From NCBI GenBank assembly GCA_026387355.1, contig JAPLLW010000013.1:1-55431 (forward strand): a stretch of DNA of 55,431 nt, written 5' to 3'. The notes below the pieces were generated by a model that was given only the letters and a program-made list of their open reading frames with translations, was not told the DNA's origin and did no database searches. The stretch is from Candidatus Omnitrophota bacterium (GTDB taxonomy: Bacteria; Omnitrophota; Gorgyraeia; Gygaellales; Profunditerraquicolaceae). Shown here piece after piece: positions 5,267 through 10,673 of this stretch. Numbering within the stretch: the stretch's first letter is position 1; each line of letters opens with the position of its first letter. The position numbers were made by a program, and so were the translations under genes.

Positions 5267-6739
5267 ATGACAGAGATTAAATTTGATTTTAATAATATGC
5301 TTAGTGAAAACCTGGGTACTAGCAATGGTGTCGAGGCCAATGAAATTACAGAGATTGCGCCTATTGTGCAAAATGCGCACGCGCATCTAGAAAAAGTCTT
5401 AAACGATACTAACAGTAGATTGAGATTAAGTTTAGAGTGGATAAGGCTTCCTTATCAGGATGAATCGGAAATAAAAAAGATACAAAAACTTGGCAATGAA
5501 ATTGCAGCTAAGTATGATGCGGTTATATCTTTGGGTATCGGAGGATCGTATCTTGGTTTAAAAGCTGCGCAGGATGCGCTCGTTTCTCCTTATTATAATG
5601 ATTTTGCCAAAGCAAGAAAAAATCGGCCGCGTATTTATTTTGAAGGAAATAACCTTGACCCGGATACGCTCTCAGTCCTTTTAAAGAATCTTAGTCCCAA
5701 GAAGACATTTGTGGTTGTAATTTCAAAGTCAGGCGAGACATCCGAGACCAAAGCAACACTTTTATCGGTTGAAAATTGGTTAAAAAAGGCGCTGGGGAAG
5801 AAGTACGGCCGCCAGATATTTGCTATTACTGATCCAGATGGGGGATCTTTACGTAAGAGAGTAGAATCTGAGCAAAAAGGAGATCCTTTAAGTTTTCGGA
5901 ATCTTCCCTTATTAAAAGGGGTAGGGGGTAGGTTCTCCGAATTTAATATGGGCCTTCTGCATCTGGCTATTATCGGGGTTAATATAAAAGAAGTTTTGGC
6001 TGGCGCAAAAGATATGGGGGATAGATGTGCCATTAGTGACTATGCCAAGAACCCTGCGTATATGTATGCTATTTTGCACCATATTCTTTATACTAAAAAA
6101 GGAAAATCTCTGGCGATTATGATGCCTTTTTCTGAGACTTTAAAGTCAACCGCGGATTGGTATGTGCAGCTATTGGCTGAAAGCCTTGGTAAGAAATACC
6201 CCCGGAAGGTTGAAGTTTTGAATAATGGTAGCGAGGAGTGGCTTAGAGATAAAACTAAATTAGTGAATGTCGGCAGGACTCCGCTTCCTTGCCGTGGCAC
6301 AAATGATCTGCATTCAATCCAGCAGAATAATGTTGAAGGCGAGAATAATAAGGTAGTTACTTTTATCAGGGTGGATAAGTTTAGAAATGAAGTTAAGGTA
6401 CCAGGTAAGGGAGATATTCTTTCGGGGAAGAGTTTTTCTCAGTTGCTAAGGCTTGCTCAAGAGGCAACTGAATGGGCACTGGTAAGAGATAGCCGACCTA
6501 ACTGCACGATTATAATGCCGGAGGTTTCTGCCTATTATTGGGGCGCCCTGTTATTCTTTTTTGAGATAGCCACTGCTTTTGAGGGAGAATTGCTTAACGT
6601 AAATGCATTTGACCAGCCCGGAGTAGAAGGCTACAAGAATTACATGTATTATAAATTAGGCAAACCCGGCGTTCCGCAGGATATTGCACAAGAGATAAAA
6701 GATAATCCTCTTCAAAAGAATCCAAAGCTTATTTTATAG
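5267..6739 (+). CDS. pgi: Glucose-6-phosphate isomerase
   Basis: 490 aa. It interconverts glucose 6-phosphate and fructose 6-phosphate in the cytoplasm. Family landmarks are all present: ISLGIGGSYLG (sugar-phosphate binding), VVISKSGETSET (phosphate loop), GGRFSEFNMGLLHL, and DLHSIQQNNVEG containing the Gln-rich active-site strand. The C-terminus has QPGVEGYKNYMY. Length is between the long (550 aa) and short (450 aa) bacterial types. AGGGA precedes the ATG. No intrinsic terminator follows. Two repeat elements separate it from dus. Confidence 0.96.
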   Translation: MTEIKFDFNNMLSENLGTSNGVEANEITEIAPIVQNAHAHLEKVLNDTNSRLRLSLEWIRLPYQDESEIKKIQKLGNEIAAKYDAVISLGIGGSYLGLKAAQDALVSPYYNDFAKARKNRPRIYFEGNNLDPDTLSVLLKNLSPKKTFVVVISKSGETSETKATLLSVENWLKKALGKKYGRQIFAITDPDGGSLRKRVESEQKGDPLSFRNLPLLKGVGGRFSEFNMGLLHLAIIGVNIKEVLAGAKDMGDRCAISDYAKNPAYMYAILHHILYTKKGKSLAIMMPFSETLKSTADWYVQLLAESLGKKYPRKVEVLNNGSEEWLRDKTKLVNVGRTPLPCRGTNDLHSIQQNNVEGENNKVVTFIRVDKFRNEVKVPGKGDILSGKSFSQLLRLAQEATEWALVRDSRPNCTIIMPEVSAYYWGALLFFFEIATAFEGELLNVNAFDQPGVEGYKNYMYYKLGKPGVPQDIAQEIKDNPLQKNPKLIL

Positions 6740-6889: not shown

Positions 6890-6899
6890 GTTGTTAAAT

Positions 6900-7859
6900 A
6901 TGCTAAAACTCGGTAATTTAAAACTTAAATCAAATTTGATCCTAGCTCCTATGGCCGGAGTAAGCGATTTACCTTTTCGCATGCTTAACCGTAAATTCGG
7001 CGCAGAGCTTGCTTTTGTAGAGATGATTAATGCCCGTTCCGTAAGTCATAAGAGCCGTAGGACGCAAGGCATGCTTAGTTCAAGTGATTTGGATAAGCCC
7101 TTAGGTATTCAGCTCCTGGGTTGCGAAGAGAGATTTATTTTAAAGGCACTTGAGGTACTCAGTAAGCATGATTTTAATATCCTGGATTTTAATGCTGCAT
7201 GCCCTGCGAAGAAAGTTGTGCGAAGAGGTGAAGGGGCTGGTTTATTAAAAGAACCTAAAAAGTTAAATAAATTACTTAAGTTGGTAGTAAAGAATTCCAA
7301 ATTACCGGTAACTGTGAAAATACGTATTGGGTGGGATAAAGACTCAATTAATGCTAAGGATGTTGCGCTTTATGCGCAGGATGCCGGGATAGTTGGTTTA
7401 TTTGTTCATGGCAGGACTAAAGCTCAAGGATACAGCGGAGCTGTTGATTATAGCGCAATTAAGAGCGTAAAGAAGGTATTGAGTATTCCTTTAATTGCTA
7501 GCGGTGATATTTTCTCTCCTCAATTGGCTAAAAAGATGTTTGATGAAACAGGATGCGATGGTTTAGCTATTGCTCGCGGTTCCTTAGGGAACCCCTGGAT
7601 ATTTAAAGAGATAAAGGAGTATCTCAAGAATGGCAAAATACTGCTAAGACCAAGTATAGATGCGGTAGTTAAGATTATGCTTAAGCATCTTGATGCGTCA
7701 ATCGCTTTTTACGGTGAAAAGAATGGAGTAGTTATCTATCGAAAGTTCTTTGGCTGGTATACAAAGGGGTTTAGCAGGATCAGGCCATTAAGAGAGAAGT
7801 CATCTAGGGCTAAGAGTAAAGAAGAGATGGTGGAGATTATTGAGGGGTGTAGGCAGTAA
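6900..7859 (+). CDS. dus: tRNA-dihydrouridine synthase
   Basis: 319 aa from the ATG at 6900. It reduces uridines in the tRNA D-loop using FMN. An N-terminal TIM barrel shows APMAGVSDLPFR (FMN binding), FNAACPAKKV with the catalytic Cys101, VTVKIRIGWD, VHGRTKAQGYSG and IASGDI followed by GLAIARGSLGNPW. The C-terminal helical RNA-binding part includes YRKFFGWYTKG. No ribosome binding site is visible. A TTG three codons upstream is another possible start, and an inverted repeat occupies the 5' region. The dus subtype cannot be settled. Confidence 0.93.
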   Translation: MLKLGNLKLKSNLILAPMAGVSDLPFRMLNRKFGAELAFVEMINARSVSHKSRRTQGMLSSSDLDKPLGIQLLGCEERFILKALEVLSKHDFNILDFNAACPAKKVVRRGEGAGLLKEPKKLNKLLKLVVKNSKLPVTVKIRIGWDKDSINAKDVALYAQDAGIVGLFVHGRTKAQGYSGAVDYSAIKSVKKVLSIPLIASGDIFSPQLAKKMFDETGCDGLAIARGSLGNPWIFKEIKEYLKNGKILLRPSIDAVVKIMLKHLDASIAFYGEKNGVVIYRKFFGWYTKGFSRIRPLREKSSRAKSKEEMVEIIEGCRQ

Positions 7860-7908: not shown

Positions 7909-7940
7909 TCCTTCGCTGGTCATTCTAGGGGCTCAGTCAC

Positions 7941-7967
7941 AAAAAATCCCGGATAAGTTCCTCCGGG
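7941..7967 (-). terminator. Intrinsic terminator on the minus strand
   Basis: Read on the minus strand, CCCGGA and TCCGGG form a 6 bp GC-rich stem around an 8 nt loop, followed by ATTTTTT. No minus-strand protein gene lies upstream. It closes the candidate RNA at 7941-8045. Confidence 0.65.
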
Positions 7968-8045
7968 GTTTCTTGTAGGTGATAGGCCTCTTTAGCTTTC
8001 GCTATCCGACCGTGCCTCCTTGTTGCATGTTTCTCTTTCACCTGC
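7941..8045 (-). ncRNA. Candidate orphan structured RNA, about 105 nt
   Basis: On the minus strand a promoter (8052-8080) would start transcription near 8045. The RNA then opens with GCAGGTGA, which pairs with TCACCTAC (+ strand 7975-7982) to close a domain. Inside is a TAGC-GAAA-GCTA hairpin with a GNRA tetraloop, plus AGGAGGC/GAGGCCT. An intrinsic terminator ends it. There is no start codon with a ribosome binding site and no downstream minus-strand gene, so a riboswitch is unlikely. I compared it by eye with c-di-GMP, SAM, cobalamin, TPP, FMN, glycine, fluoride and SRP RNAs and saw no match. Confidence 0.5.
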
Positions 8046-8051
8046 AATTTA

Positions 8052-8080
8052 AGTATGCCATATATTTTGGCAATTTTCAA
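8052..8080 (-). promoter_or_regulatory. Promoter for the minus-strand RNA
   Basis: On the minus strand TTGAAA (+ coordinates 8075-8080), a spacer of exactly 17 nt, and CATACT (8052-8057). The predicted start falls at the first base pair of the RNA's closing helix, six or seven bases on. The -10 box is imperfect (4 of 6). Confidence 0.5.
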
Positions 8081-8117
8081 GTCCCCGAAAAATAAATTTA
8101 TCTAATCTAAATAAGGG

Positions 8118-8282
8118 CCAGCGAGCCCTGTCTTGCCTGTGATTTCGCGGGTACGCTTGTTTTGCCCCAGCGTGGCAAAACTGCGCTCGGGTCGGCTGCG
8201 TCGCTCCCCGCCAAGAACCATGGTGGGACCATGCTCGCTCCTTGCCGACACGCCCCGCTCAAACACAGCCAAGTCAGGACCC
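8118..8282. repeat. GC-rich compound palindrome containing GGGTCCTG copy c (reverse)
   Basis: This ~165 bp stretch is far GC-richer than its flanks. The reverse complement of GGGTCCTG is at 8275-8282. Outer arms CTTGCCTG (8132-8139) and CAGCCAAG (8266-8273) are nearly complementary. Inside are GTTTTGCC/GGCAAAAC, GTCGG/CCGAC and CATGGT/ACCATG hairpins. A 66-codon open frame crosses it but reads as low-complexity Arg/Ser/Pro without a ribosome binding site, so I do not call a gene. The remaining bases up to 8462 show nothing but a weak promoter. Confidence 0.55.
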
Positions 8283-8423
8283 GCTTGTGACGAAGCGATA
8301 ATTAGAATCCTTTACAGAACAATTGGAAAATAGTCCTGGGCAAATACCGTATCCAGTAAGCATAGAAAACGCTTTCGTTTCAGCATAAAACTCCATTGAA
8401 TCAGGATATTCTTAATGTTAGGC

Positions 8424-8462: not shown

Positions 8463-10673
8463 ATGAGGCTAAAGATGCTGATGAAGTTAGTGTTTAATCT
8501 TAGGACCATGTTTATAATAGTGATATTTCTGATGCTATCCGCTAACTTATATGCGGATGAAAAAGATAGCATTAGTATGGATAAGAGCAATGATTATAAA
8601 CAGTCTTATGACTCAGGTAAAAACAGCTATACCTATAATAATACGGTTGCAACCCCTAGTTATGATCCGCCCAAGACTTATTCTAGTCCTATGGCTTTTA
8701 CCAATTCTCCCATACTAAATAATAACAACTATGTACCTTATGTCCCTACGGTTGGCGCCTCTAGTTACAATCCAGGTTTGACCAATATCACCCCGTCAGG
8801 TTTGATCAAAATTCCTGACTCAAACAGCTTCCCCGTTGGAGCAGGAGCTTATACCGCAGGCTTAGATAAGAATAGCTTTAGCTATACCCCTAATAACATC
8901 TATGGCTCTATCGACAGTAACTTTGTCAAACCCGTGGACATGGTTAAGGTTTCTGATTTAAATAGCGTTCCCGTTGGAGCAGGAGCTTATACCGCAGGCT
9001 TAGATAAGAATAGCTATAACTATACCCCTAAAATTGATAACCTTAGTTACGGCGGCGACATCATTACTCCCCCGCCAGGCTTGACTAAAGCCACTGATTT
9101 AAACAGCAGCTATAATAAAGTAGAAGTTTATATCGGTGGGTTTGATTCTGGTTCTATCGACAATACCTTTATCAATCCAGCGGGCATTACTAAAGTCCCT
9201 GATTTAAATAGCAGCTACACCGGAGCTGCTGAGGTTATTGTCCCTAGTTACGACTTGGGGCTTGATATCACACCGTCAGGTTTGACTAAAGCACCTGATT
9301 TAAACAGTAGCTACACCGGCGCTCCTAAGGTTAATGCCTCTAGTTACAACGAAGATTTGCCTGATATCGTCCCGCCAGGCTTGGCTAAAGCCACTGATTT
9401 AAACAGCGGTTTAAATAGCAACGATAACAAAGTAGGAGTTTATACCGGAAATACCAAGCAGCCACCCATTAGAGGCTTCTGGTATCCACAAACTAAAGCT
9501 GATCTTACAATGCCGGATAATTCTGTTCAAACAGGCCTTGATAGCCAATTACCGGATTTTAGAGAGAGATCACTTCTTGAGCAGGGTGTTCCGGATAAGT
9601 ACCCAATTCCTGACTCTTTTAATGTTGAACGTTTACTAGATATTATACTTGACCGTGAAGTTGTTAACCCTCTTAGAACCGTTAATATAGAATTCTATAA
9701 AGAAGAAAAGGCTCCATTAGATGCGGTTTCCTTGGCGGGAATTTTAATTAATATTGTAAAAGACCCGGAATTCGAGACAAAGTCAGAAATTATCCCGTAT
9801 CGTGCTGCTCAAGCATTGCTTCGCATGCGCGACGACCACCTTTATCCGGAAGTAAGGGTTTATTTAGACGCAGTCTGGCCTAATCAAGGAGAAGATAACC
9901 GGAAGATTGCTCTAGAAAGATATTCTGACCTACTTGATAACATAGCGAATGGATTGGGTGTCAGTCCAGAAGCATTAAATAAGACCAAAGACATCCCTCT
10001 CCACTATTTTGCTGCTACGTCTGACAATATAGCTAGTGATTCAATAAAGAATACTAGAATACCGGGAACATTTCTTAATGCCGCACTCCTTATTGGCGCA
10101 ATTAGAGGAAATGTCTCCAACGCCAACTTCTGGTCTCCAATAGAAAGTAGTGATGTAAAATCTAGCTCCAAAGGTGGTATGAATATTTTACAGAGCGGAA
10201 GAGAAGGAGAGCGTTTTAGCGATTACTTTGCCGCAGAAGCAGGCCATGCTCTTTTTTTTAGCGAGTTAGGTCGTCTGCCTTCTTCTGGAATGGCGGGTGA
10301 AACCGTGGATCAGGCAGCAAGATTGTTCGTTGCAGCATCTTTGGGGTATGAAGATGAAGTAATAAACGGTAATGATTCTATACATCAATGGGCAGAGGCT
10401 TTTTCGAATGCAGAAATACTAGCAGCTGGAAATGCAGAAGCTATAACCAAAATTGATGCGCATTATAAGGCCGCGTTTGCCATTAGTTATTTATTAAATG
10501 ATCCGGAACACCCGGACCGTTATTATACTCCTGATCAAATTGCAAGAGCAGTATTCCAGACTGCTCTATTTAGCTCCGGAGAAAATGATCCGCGTAAATT
10601 AGGCGAAGCTTTTCGTGTTACTGCACAAAGTATGTATCCCGACCAAATAAATCATATCGGATCTCCTAATTAA
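8463..10673 (+). CDS. Large secreted protein with Tyr/Asn/Pro-rich repeats
   Basis: 736 aa of unrecognised family. A signal peptide (FIIVIFLMLSANLYA) precedes a low-complexity Tyr/Ser/Asn/Pro region. Residues ~100-320 hold six copies of a unit around P(S/P/A)GLTKAPDLNSSY, spaced 32-47 residues. The C-terminal half (~370-736) is globular and helical. It contains AEAGHALFFSELG (591-603), which has the spacing of a zinc-peptidase HExxH motif with the first His replaced by Ala. A second ATG at 8475 follows GAGG and may be the true start. The protein is monocistronic, between two gene-free regions. A cell-surface or envelope role is plausible. No function can be named. Confidence 0.75.
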   Translation: MRLKMLMKLVFNLRTMFIIVIFLMLSANLYADEKDSISMDKSNDYKQSYDSGKNSYTYNNTVATPSYDPPKTYSSPMAFTNSPILNNNNYVPYVPTVGASSYNPGLTNITPSGLIKIPDSNSFPVGAGAYTAGLDKNSFSYTPNNIYGSIDSNFVKPVDMVKVSDLNSVPVGAGAYTAGLDKNSYNYTPKIDNLSYGGDIITPPPGLTKATDLNSSYNKVEVYIGGFDSGSIDNTFINPAGITKVPDLNSSYTGAAEVIVPSYDLGLDITPSGLTKAPDLNSSYTGAPKVNASSYNEDLPDIVPPGLAKATDLNSGLNSNDNKVGVYTGNTKQPPIRGFWYPQTKADLTMPDNSVQTGLDSQLPDFRERSLLEQGVPDKYPIPDSFNVERLLDIILDREVVNPLRTVNIEFYKEEKAPLDAVSLAGILINIVKDPEFETKSEIIPYRAAQALLRMRDDHLYPEVRVYLDAVWPNQGEDNRKIALERYSDLLDNIANGLGVSPEALNKTKDIPLHYFAATSDNIASDSIKNTRIPGTFLNAALLIGAIRGNVSNANFWSPIESSDVKSSSKGGMNILQSGREGERFSDYFAAEAGHALFFSELGRLPSSGMAGETVDQAARLFVAASLGYEDEVINGNDSIHQWAEAFSNAEILAAGNAEAITKIDAHYKAAFAISYLLNDPEHPDRYYTPDQIARAVFQTALFSSGENDPRKLGEAFRVTAQSMYPDQINHIGSPN
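8832..9015 (+). repeat. 46 bp exact direct repeat inside the secreted protein gene
   Basis: Bases 8832-8877 recur exactly at 8970-9015. The offset of 138 bp (46 codons) keeps the frame. They encode PVGAGAYTAGLDKNS twice. Exact identity at the DNA level points to a recent duplication and possible length variation. Confidence 0.9.

Follow-up and report, generated by a model that had tools for sequence, protein, structure and literature searches.

A likely new family of free-standing small RNAs, with a predicted pseudoknot and a Shine-Dalgarno-like block, in the Omnitrophota

In several riboswitches that sequester the Shine-Dalgarno (SD) sequence, such as SAM-II and preQ1-II, a small pseudoknot lies beside an SD-like purine block. 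We analyzed a 55,431-nucleotide stretch of DNA from Candidatus Omnitrophota (the window), which appears to encode an RNA with a similar arrangement. Unlike those riboswitches, it is free-standing, with its own terminator and no downstream gene, and it has no sequence match in Rfam. Spot 42 and SR1 are small RNAs under catabolite control, and a sugar-type transcription regulator may also act on our RNA, in a subset of its members only; but there is no similarity to Spot 42 or SR1 in sequence or structure in Rfam, and the phylum essentially lacks Hfq. The CsrB and RsmY sponges are, like our RNA, stand-alone and intergenic with single-stranded GGA, but they carry many GGA hairpins, while this RNA has one GGAGG block and its genome lacks CsrA. 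6S RNA (RF00013) is also small, housekeeping-like, and usually present in one or two copies, but our RNA does not form its rod-like hairpin. Finally, bacterial SRP RNA (RF00169, RF01854) is a short RNA with a GNRA-capped hairpin, but our RNA lacks the CAGG...AGCA symmetric loop, and about two thirds of the phylum genomes that we searched do not have it.

On the minus strand of the window, from 8080 to 7941, a promoter, an RNA of about 104 nt, and an intrinsic terminator follow each other in that order. The features of the locus and its surroundings are:

8075..8080, minus strand: -35 element TTGAAA (homologues keep TTGA upstream)
8052..8062, minus strand: extended -10 region TATGGCATACT (the conserved form in relatives is TATGGCATACTT)
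7941..8045, minus strand: small RNA, a predicted transcript of about 104 nt (5' end about 7 nt past the -10 element, 3' end in the T run)
8015..8021, minus strand: AAGGAGG, SD-like block (GGAGG nearly invariant, its pairing unsupported)
8002..8006, minus strand: GATAG, 5' strand of pseudoknot stem S1 (its partner is 7985-7981)
7996..8001, minus strand: C-GAAA-G mini-hairpin (GNRA loop in most homologues; C-G pair in 90/90)
7987..7989, minus strand: AGG, 5' strand of stem S2 (the flanking base N1 is 7990)
7981..7985, minus strand: CTATC (YUAUC), 3' strand of S1, within the hairpin loop of S2
7977..7979, minus strand: CCT, 3' strand of S2 (the flanking base N4 is 7976)
7941..7967, minus strand: intrinsic terminator CCCGGAGGAACTTATCCGGG-ATTTTTT (G+C-rich stem and T run)
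6891..7859, plus strand: putative tRNA-dihydrouridine synthase-like (dus) gene, named by sequence resemblance; convergent with the RNA and separate from it
8365..8376, plus strand: palindrome GAAAACGCTTTC, which resembles a LacI/CcpA-type operator and lies about 290 bp upstream of the RNA's promoter

The original prediction, which was made by reading the sequence, described a free-standing small RNA with its own promoter and a GC-rich terminator ending in ATTTTTT. Both signals are present (the spacer between TTGAAA and CATACT, at 8057-8052, is 17 nt, and TG precedes the -10 element), and both recur in homologous loci. Of 81 homologous loci, 62 have the promoter pattern on the RNA strand and 7 have it on the other strand; shuffled sequences give 0.8. 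The extended -10 pattern is found in 54 of the 81 loci on the RNA strand and in none on the other. Directly 3' of the RNA, 73 of 81 loci have a terminator, versus 3 when shuffled. Promoters and terminators are thus far more frequent than expected by chance. The terminator's stem is often bordered by runs of A and T, so it can also end a convergent gene. G-U occurs at pair 31-52 in 19 of 90 sequences, as read on the RNA strand; G-U pairs and loops that are mostly GNRA fit the minus strand as the transcript. In line with the predicted absence of a protein gene on this strand, no minus-strand open reading frame of at least 60 amino acids overlaps the RNA.

A 110-nt stretch at the locus folds at -30.8 kcal/mol, while 200 dinucleotide shuffles average -21.2 ± 3.2 kcal/mol (z = -3.0; no shuffle was as good). 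The predicted fold includes both a 5'-proximal helix (AGGUGA/UCACCU) and the GNRA-capped hairpin of the original prediction, here with a GAAA loop. The 5'-proximal helix had been described as closing the structure from the start of transcription. It does form in this sequence, but across the family, the longest match between the 5' leader and the 3' segment averages 4.0, which is no better than for shuffled leaders (3.7). Only some members have the closing helix, which competes with the pseudoknot that is conserved.

Searching 58 genomes with blastn, we found homologues in most members of the home family and in some of the order. A first covariance model (R1, from 28 sequences) matched 84 of 237 genomes from the phylum, and a second model (R2, from 90 sequences) matched 119 of 374. 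The weakest of the R2 matches has E = 1.7e-5 (the limit was 1e-3), and there is usually one copy per genome and sometimes two. The window's RNA matches R1 at 7940-8027 with E = 9e-17, and it matches R2 with E = 2e-13. The RNA is carried by 56 of the 70 genomes from the home family, and members are found in 17 families, two of which are outside the class. Family members are about 85-110 nt long. From 5' to 3', the consensus is TTGA...TATGGCATACTT; a leader; (A)AGGAGG; a spacer of 3-9 nt or longer; GATAG-C-GNRA-G-C...AGG-N-YTATC-N-CCT; a brief segment rich in A; and the terminator. There was no match to the RNA in collections of viruses, phages, and plasmids, so a mobile origin is unsupported. 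We did not accept the one pattern match among genome contigs (L031) as a homologue: only 21 bases are in common and the rest of the RNA is absent. Genus g13 has a second, diverged copy (AGGATTATCCCCTCC type) at L069, L071, L075, L082, and L112; L086 carries a variant of it. This copy adjoins a gene for peptidyl-prolyl isomerase, and a UvrD-like helicase gene is usually on its other side.

The covariance search with homologues that was suggested along with the original prediction yields covarying helices, which supports a small RNA. The alignment supports a compact pseudoknot: NAGG/CCUN would form a hairpin whose loop contains YUAUC, GAUAG would pair with this YUAUC, and the GNRA mini-hairpin would lie in between. 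(The two helices cross, so the fold is either a pseudoknot or another pairing with the loop.) Among the 90 sequences there are 34 double-change cells, as compared to 12.6 ± 2.5 in shuffles and 0-15 in slid controls. None of 500 shuffles was as high for cells paired, double changes, or score, and the slid controls were lower, although related sequences can exceed shuffles in such counts. In the GATAG/YTATC stem, three sequences have A-U or U-A in place of G-C, two have G-C in place of A-U, and 19 have G-U in place of G-C. The bases that flank the other stem (N1 before AGG and N4 after CCT) covary strongly: T-A in 22 sequences, A-T in 14, G-C in 14, and C-G in 1. They are paired in 52 of 87 sequences (versus 27.8 in shuffles), and outside the home family, in 35 of 45 (versus 18.1). 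In 37 of the 90 sequences, including the window's own (G and A), they are unpaired. Two other helices did not hold up. A simple TAGC/GCTA hairpin has its second pair broken in 6 of 28 sequences, without compensation. The outer helix P0 (GGAGG/CCU), which was part of the first covariance model, is not supported by covariation (33/87 versus 30.2).

We compared the RNA to the known classes. Searches against Rfam 15 at the gathering score, for the window and 13 divergent homologous loci, found nothing over the RNA, and relaxing the threshold to E ≤ 10 (across 801 bases) yielded one unrelated match of 12 bits. This agrees with the original prediction's view that the RNA belongs to none of the common riboswitch or housekeeping classes. 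It is not 6S RNA: RF00013 does not match the locus, and the genome's 6S RNA is elsewhere (C22:8303-8464). Nor is it SRP RNA, as there is no match to RF00169 or RF01854, and alignment A1 lacks the symmetric loop motif that binds Ffh. SRP RNA itself was not recognized in related genomes (RF00169 had no match above the cut-off in 39 genomes of family f1, and RF01854 had none in 30 relatives), while 6S RNA was found in 27 of those 30 relatives. Either the SRP RNA of these bacteria is very divergent or this is a limit of the search. We also considered a small peptide, because the RNA in the window has both an SD-like block and an in-frame run. In relatives, the indels in the loop and the spacer are not multiples of three, so the core is not coding, and no start codon is conserved. 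Literature searches on the Omnitrophota found nothing relevant.

In the home family, the RNA often has a dus-like gene on one side and recG on the other. Other families have a phosphoglucose-isomerase-like gene that directly converges on the RNA, and a gene of this type also lies near the RNA in the window, at 5267-6739. A cis-acting element of the genes on the opposite strand, such as a leader or a shared terminator region, with the strand of the RNA misassigned, would fit with the bidirectional terminator and with both neighbors being on the opposite strand in 89 of the 102 loci with both flanks known (these loci are redundant, and this is not a tested bias). We consider this very unlikely: the promoters are on the RNA strand, the G-U pairs and GNRA loops can be explained on that strand only, and the flanking genes vary between lineages. 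Most loci have no same-strand gene after the RNA, and in nearly all of them the first gene downstream is read from the other strand; this speaks against a cis-regulator. Overall, the RNA has its own promoter and intrinsic terminator, its structure shows compensatory changes, its flanking genes differ, and it lacks an Rfam match, and so the central claim of the original prediction, a free-standing small RNA rather than a cis-regulator, has stood up. This is almost certainly a new family of small RNAs that is absent from Rfam yet kept across 17 families of one phylum, and the covariance model that we built can be used to find further members.

In the GGAGG block, each base is conserved in 86-90 of the 90 sequences. 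Because its pairing with CCU is unsupported, something other than that helix must keep GGAGG. (The GGAGG of several lineages could alternatively pair with CCUCC in the same RNA.) The block is a stronger SD match than the SD sequences of most genes in the window. It matches the 16S rRNA tail GGATCACCTCCTTT, which we found in six relatives (for the three that we checked, the identity as SSU rRNA was confirmed); the 16S tail of the window's own genome was not found in the assembly.

These observations suggest how the RNA might act. The pseudoknot would hold the UAUCNCCU segment closed and leave GGAGG single-stranded. The exposed GGAGG, with no start codon behind it, would pair with the anti-SD tail of 16S rRNA, and the RNA would thereby influence translation in trans by mimicking a ribosome-binding site, or else it would offer GGAGG to a protein partner. 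The genome's LacI/CcpA-type regulator appears to set the RNA's synthesis in some lineages. We tentatively favor an SD mimic that regulates translation, since CCU/UAUC is held in the predicted pseudoknot, GGAGG matches the 16S tail, and the SD sequences of most window genes are weaker; still, the odds are somewhat against it, and two other readings are close rivals. With one RNA per genome, pairing with 16S rRNA would require that the RNA be abundant for ribosomes to be affected. The most specific version, in which a stand-alone SD mimic without a start codon is kept open by its pseudoknot, possibly under the control of a ligand, and occupies anti-SD tails to control translation globally, is improbable as a whole.

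One of the rivals is an antisense RNA that acts in trans: the pseudoknot would open, and YUAUCNCCU would pair with the SD regions of target mRNAs (AGGUGAUAGG-like) to block translation without a chaperone. This might be the case, but we doubt it. AGGNYUAUCNCCU, one of the RNA's best-conserved segments, is similar to the 16S anti-SD tail GGAUCACCUCC, and the 5' leader of some members is complementary to the segment, which suggests that it can pair elsewhere. However, covariation places the segment in two helices, so structure explains its conservation, and the window's genome has neither Hfq nor CsrA. An antisense RNA that depends on Hfq can be rejected, as Hfq (PF17209) was not above the cut-off in any of 237 genomes, including the window's (G000). 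We give about the same weight to a free-standing RNA that binds a ligand or a protein, that is, a riboswitch-like aptamer in which the ligand governs access to GGAGG or the availability of a bound protein. SD-sequestering pseudoknot riboswitches have this same layout, a dense invariant core in which a pseudoknot and a GNRA loop adjoin an SD-like block; GGAGG competes with the internal AGG for one and the same CCU; and LacI-type control, in a subset, would also be compatible. On the other hand, there is no gene downstream on the same strand to be regulated, and no riboswitch in Rfam matches. The CsrA sponge that was floated in the original prediction did not survive. Many members do have a conserved ACAAGGA-like block, but the conserved GGA is a single SD-shaped GGAGG block per RNA rather than the repeated motif of a sponge, and CsrA (PF02599) has no match in the window's genome and is absent from nearly all genomes that carry the RNA. 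Just 21 of 237 genomes have CsrA above the cut-off, and of those only G126 also has a strong match to the RNA, so a sponge is scarcely credible, and for the window's genome it is refuted unless a CsrA analogue there escaped recognition. This near-exclusion of CsrA and the RNA across the phylum may reflect phylogeny or replacement.

More broadly, the phylum lacks a recognizable Hfq and mostly lacks CsrA, which points to small-RNA control without the well-known helpers. The conserved features suggest a previously uncharacterized regulator of translation in bacteria without the usual helper proteins, and its pseudoknot and nearly invariant GGAGG lead to specific predictions that can be tested.

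LacI-type control of the RNA seems to be a lead for a subset of lineages, not a property of the family. Across loci, the palindrome GAAAACGCTTTC or AAGCGTTTACT occurs near the RNA's promoter 25 times, versus 2.2 expected, and most genomes encode a single LacI-family protein (in the window's genome, it is on C14 and has 342 amino acids). We consider it only a lead because the window's palindrome is 290 bp away, because the operator 10-mer is not enriched in the window's genome (10 occurrences versus 9 for the reversed control), and because, among the RNA-bearing genomes listed for family f12, none has a LacI-family protein or the motif near the promoter. The palindrome at 8365-8376 may instead serve the gene at 8463. 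Between the RNA's promoter and that gene, at 8113-8290, is a G+C-rich stretch that is absent from homologous loci. The same genome has a similar G+C-rich sequence (GCCCCAGCGTGGC) at L161, so this is possibly a dispersed element. Three intergenic GAAAACGCTTTC palindromes (at L160, at L164, and at 8365-8376 in the window) lie about 20 bp upstream of TTGAA, and this spacing hints at an activator site for the single LacI-family protein.
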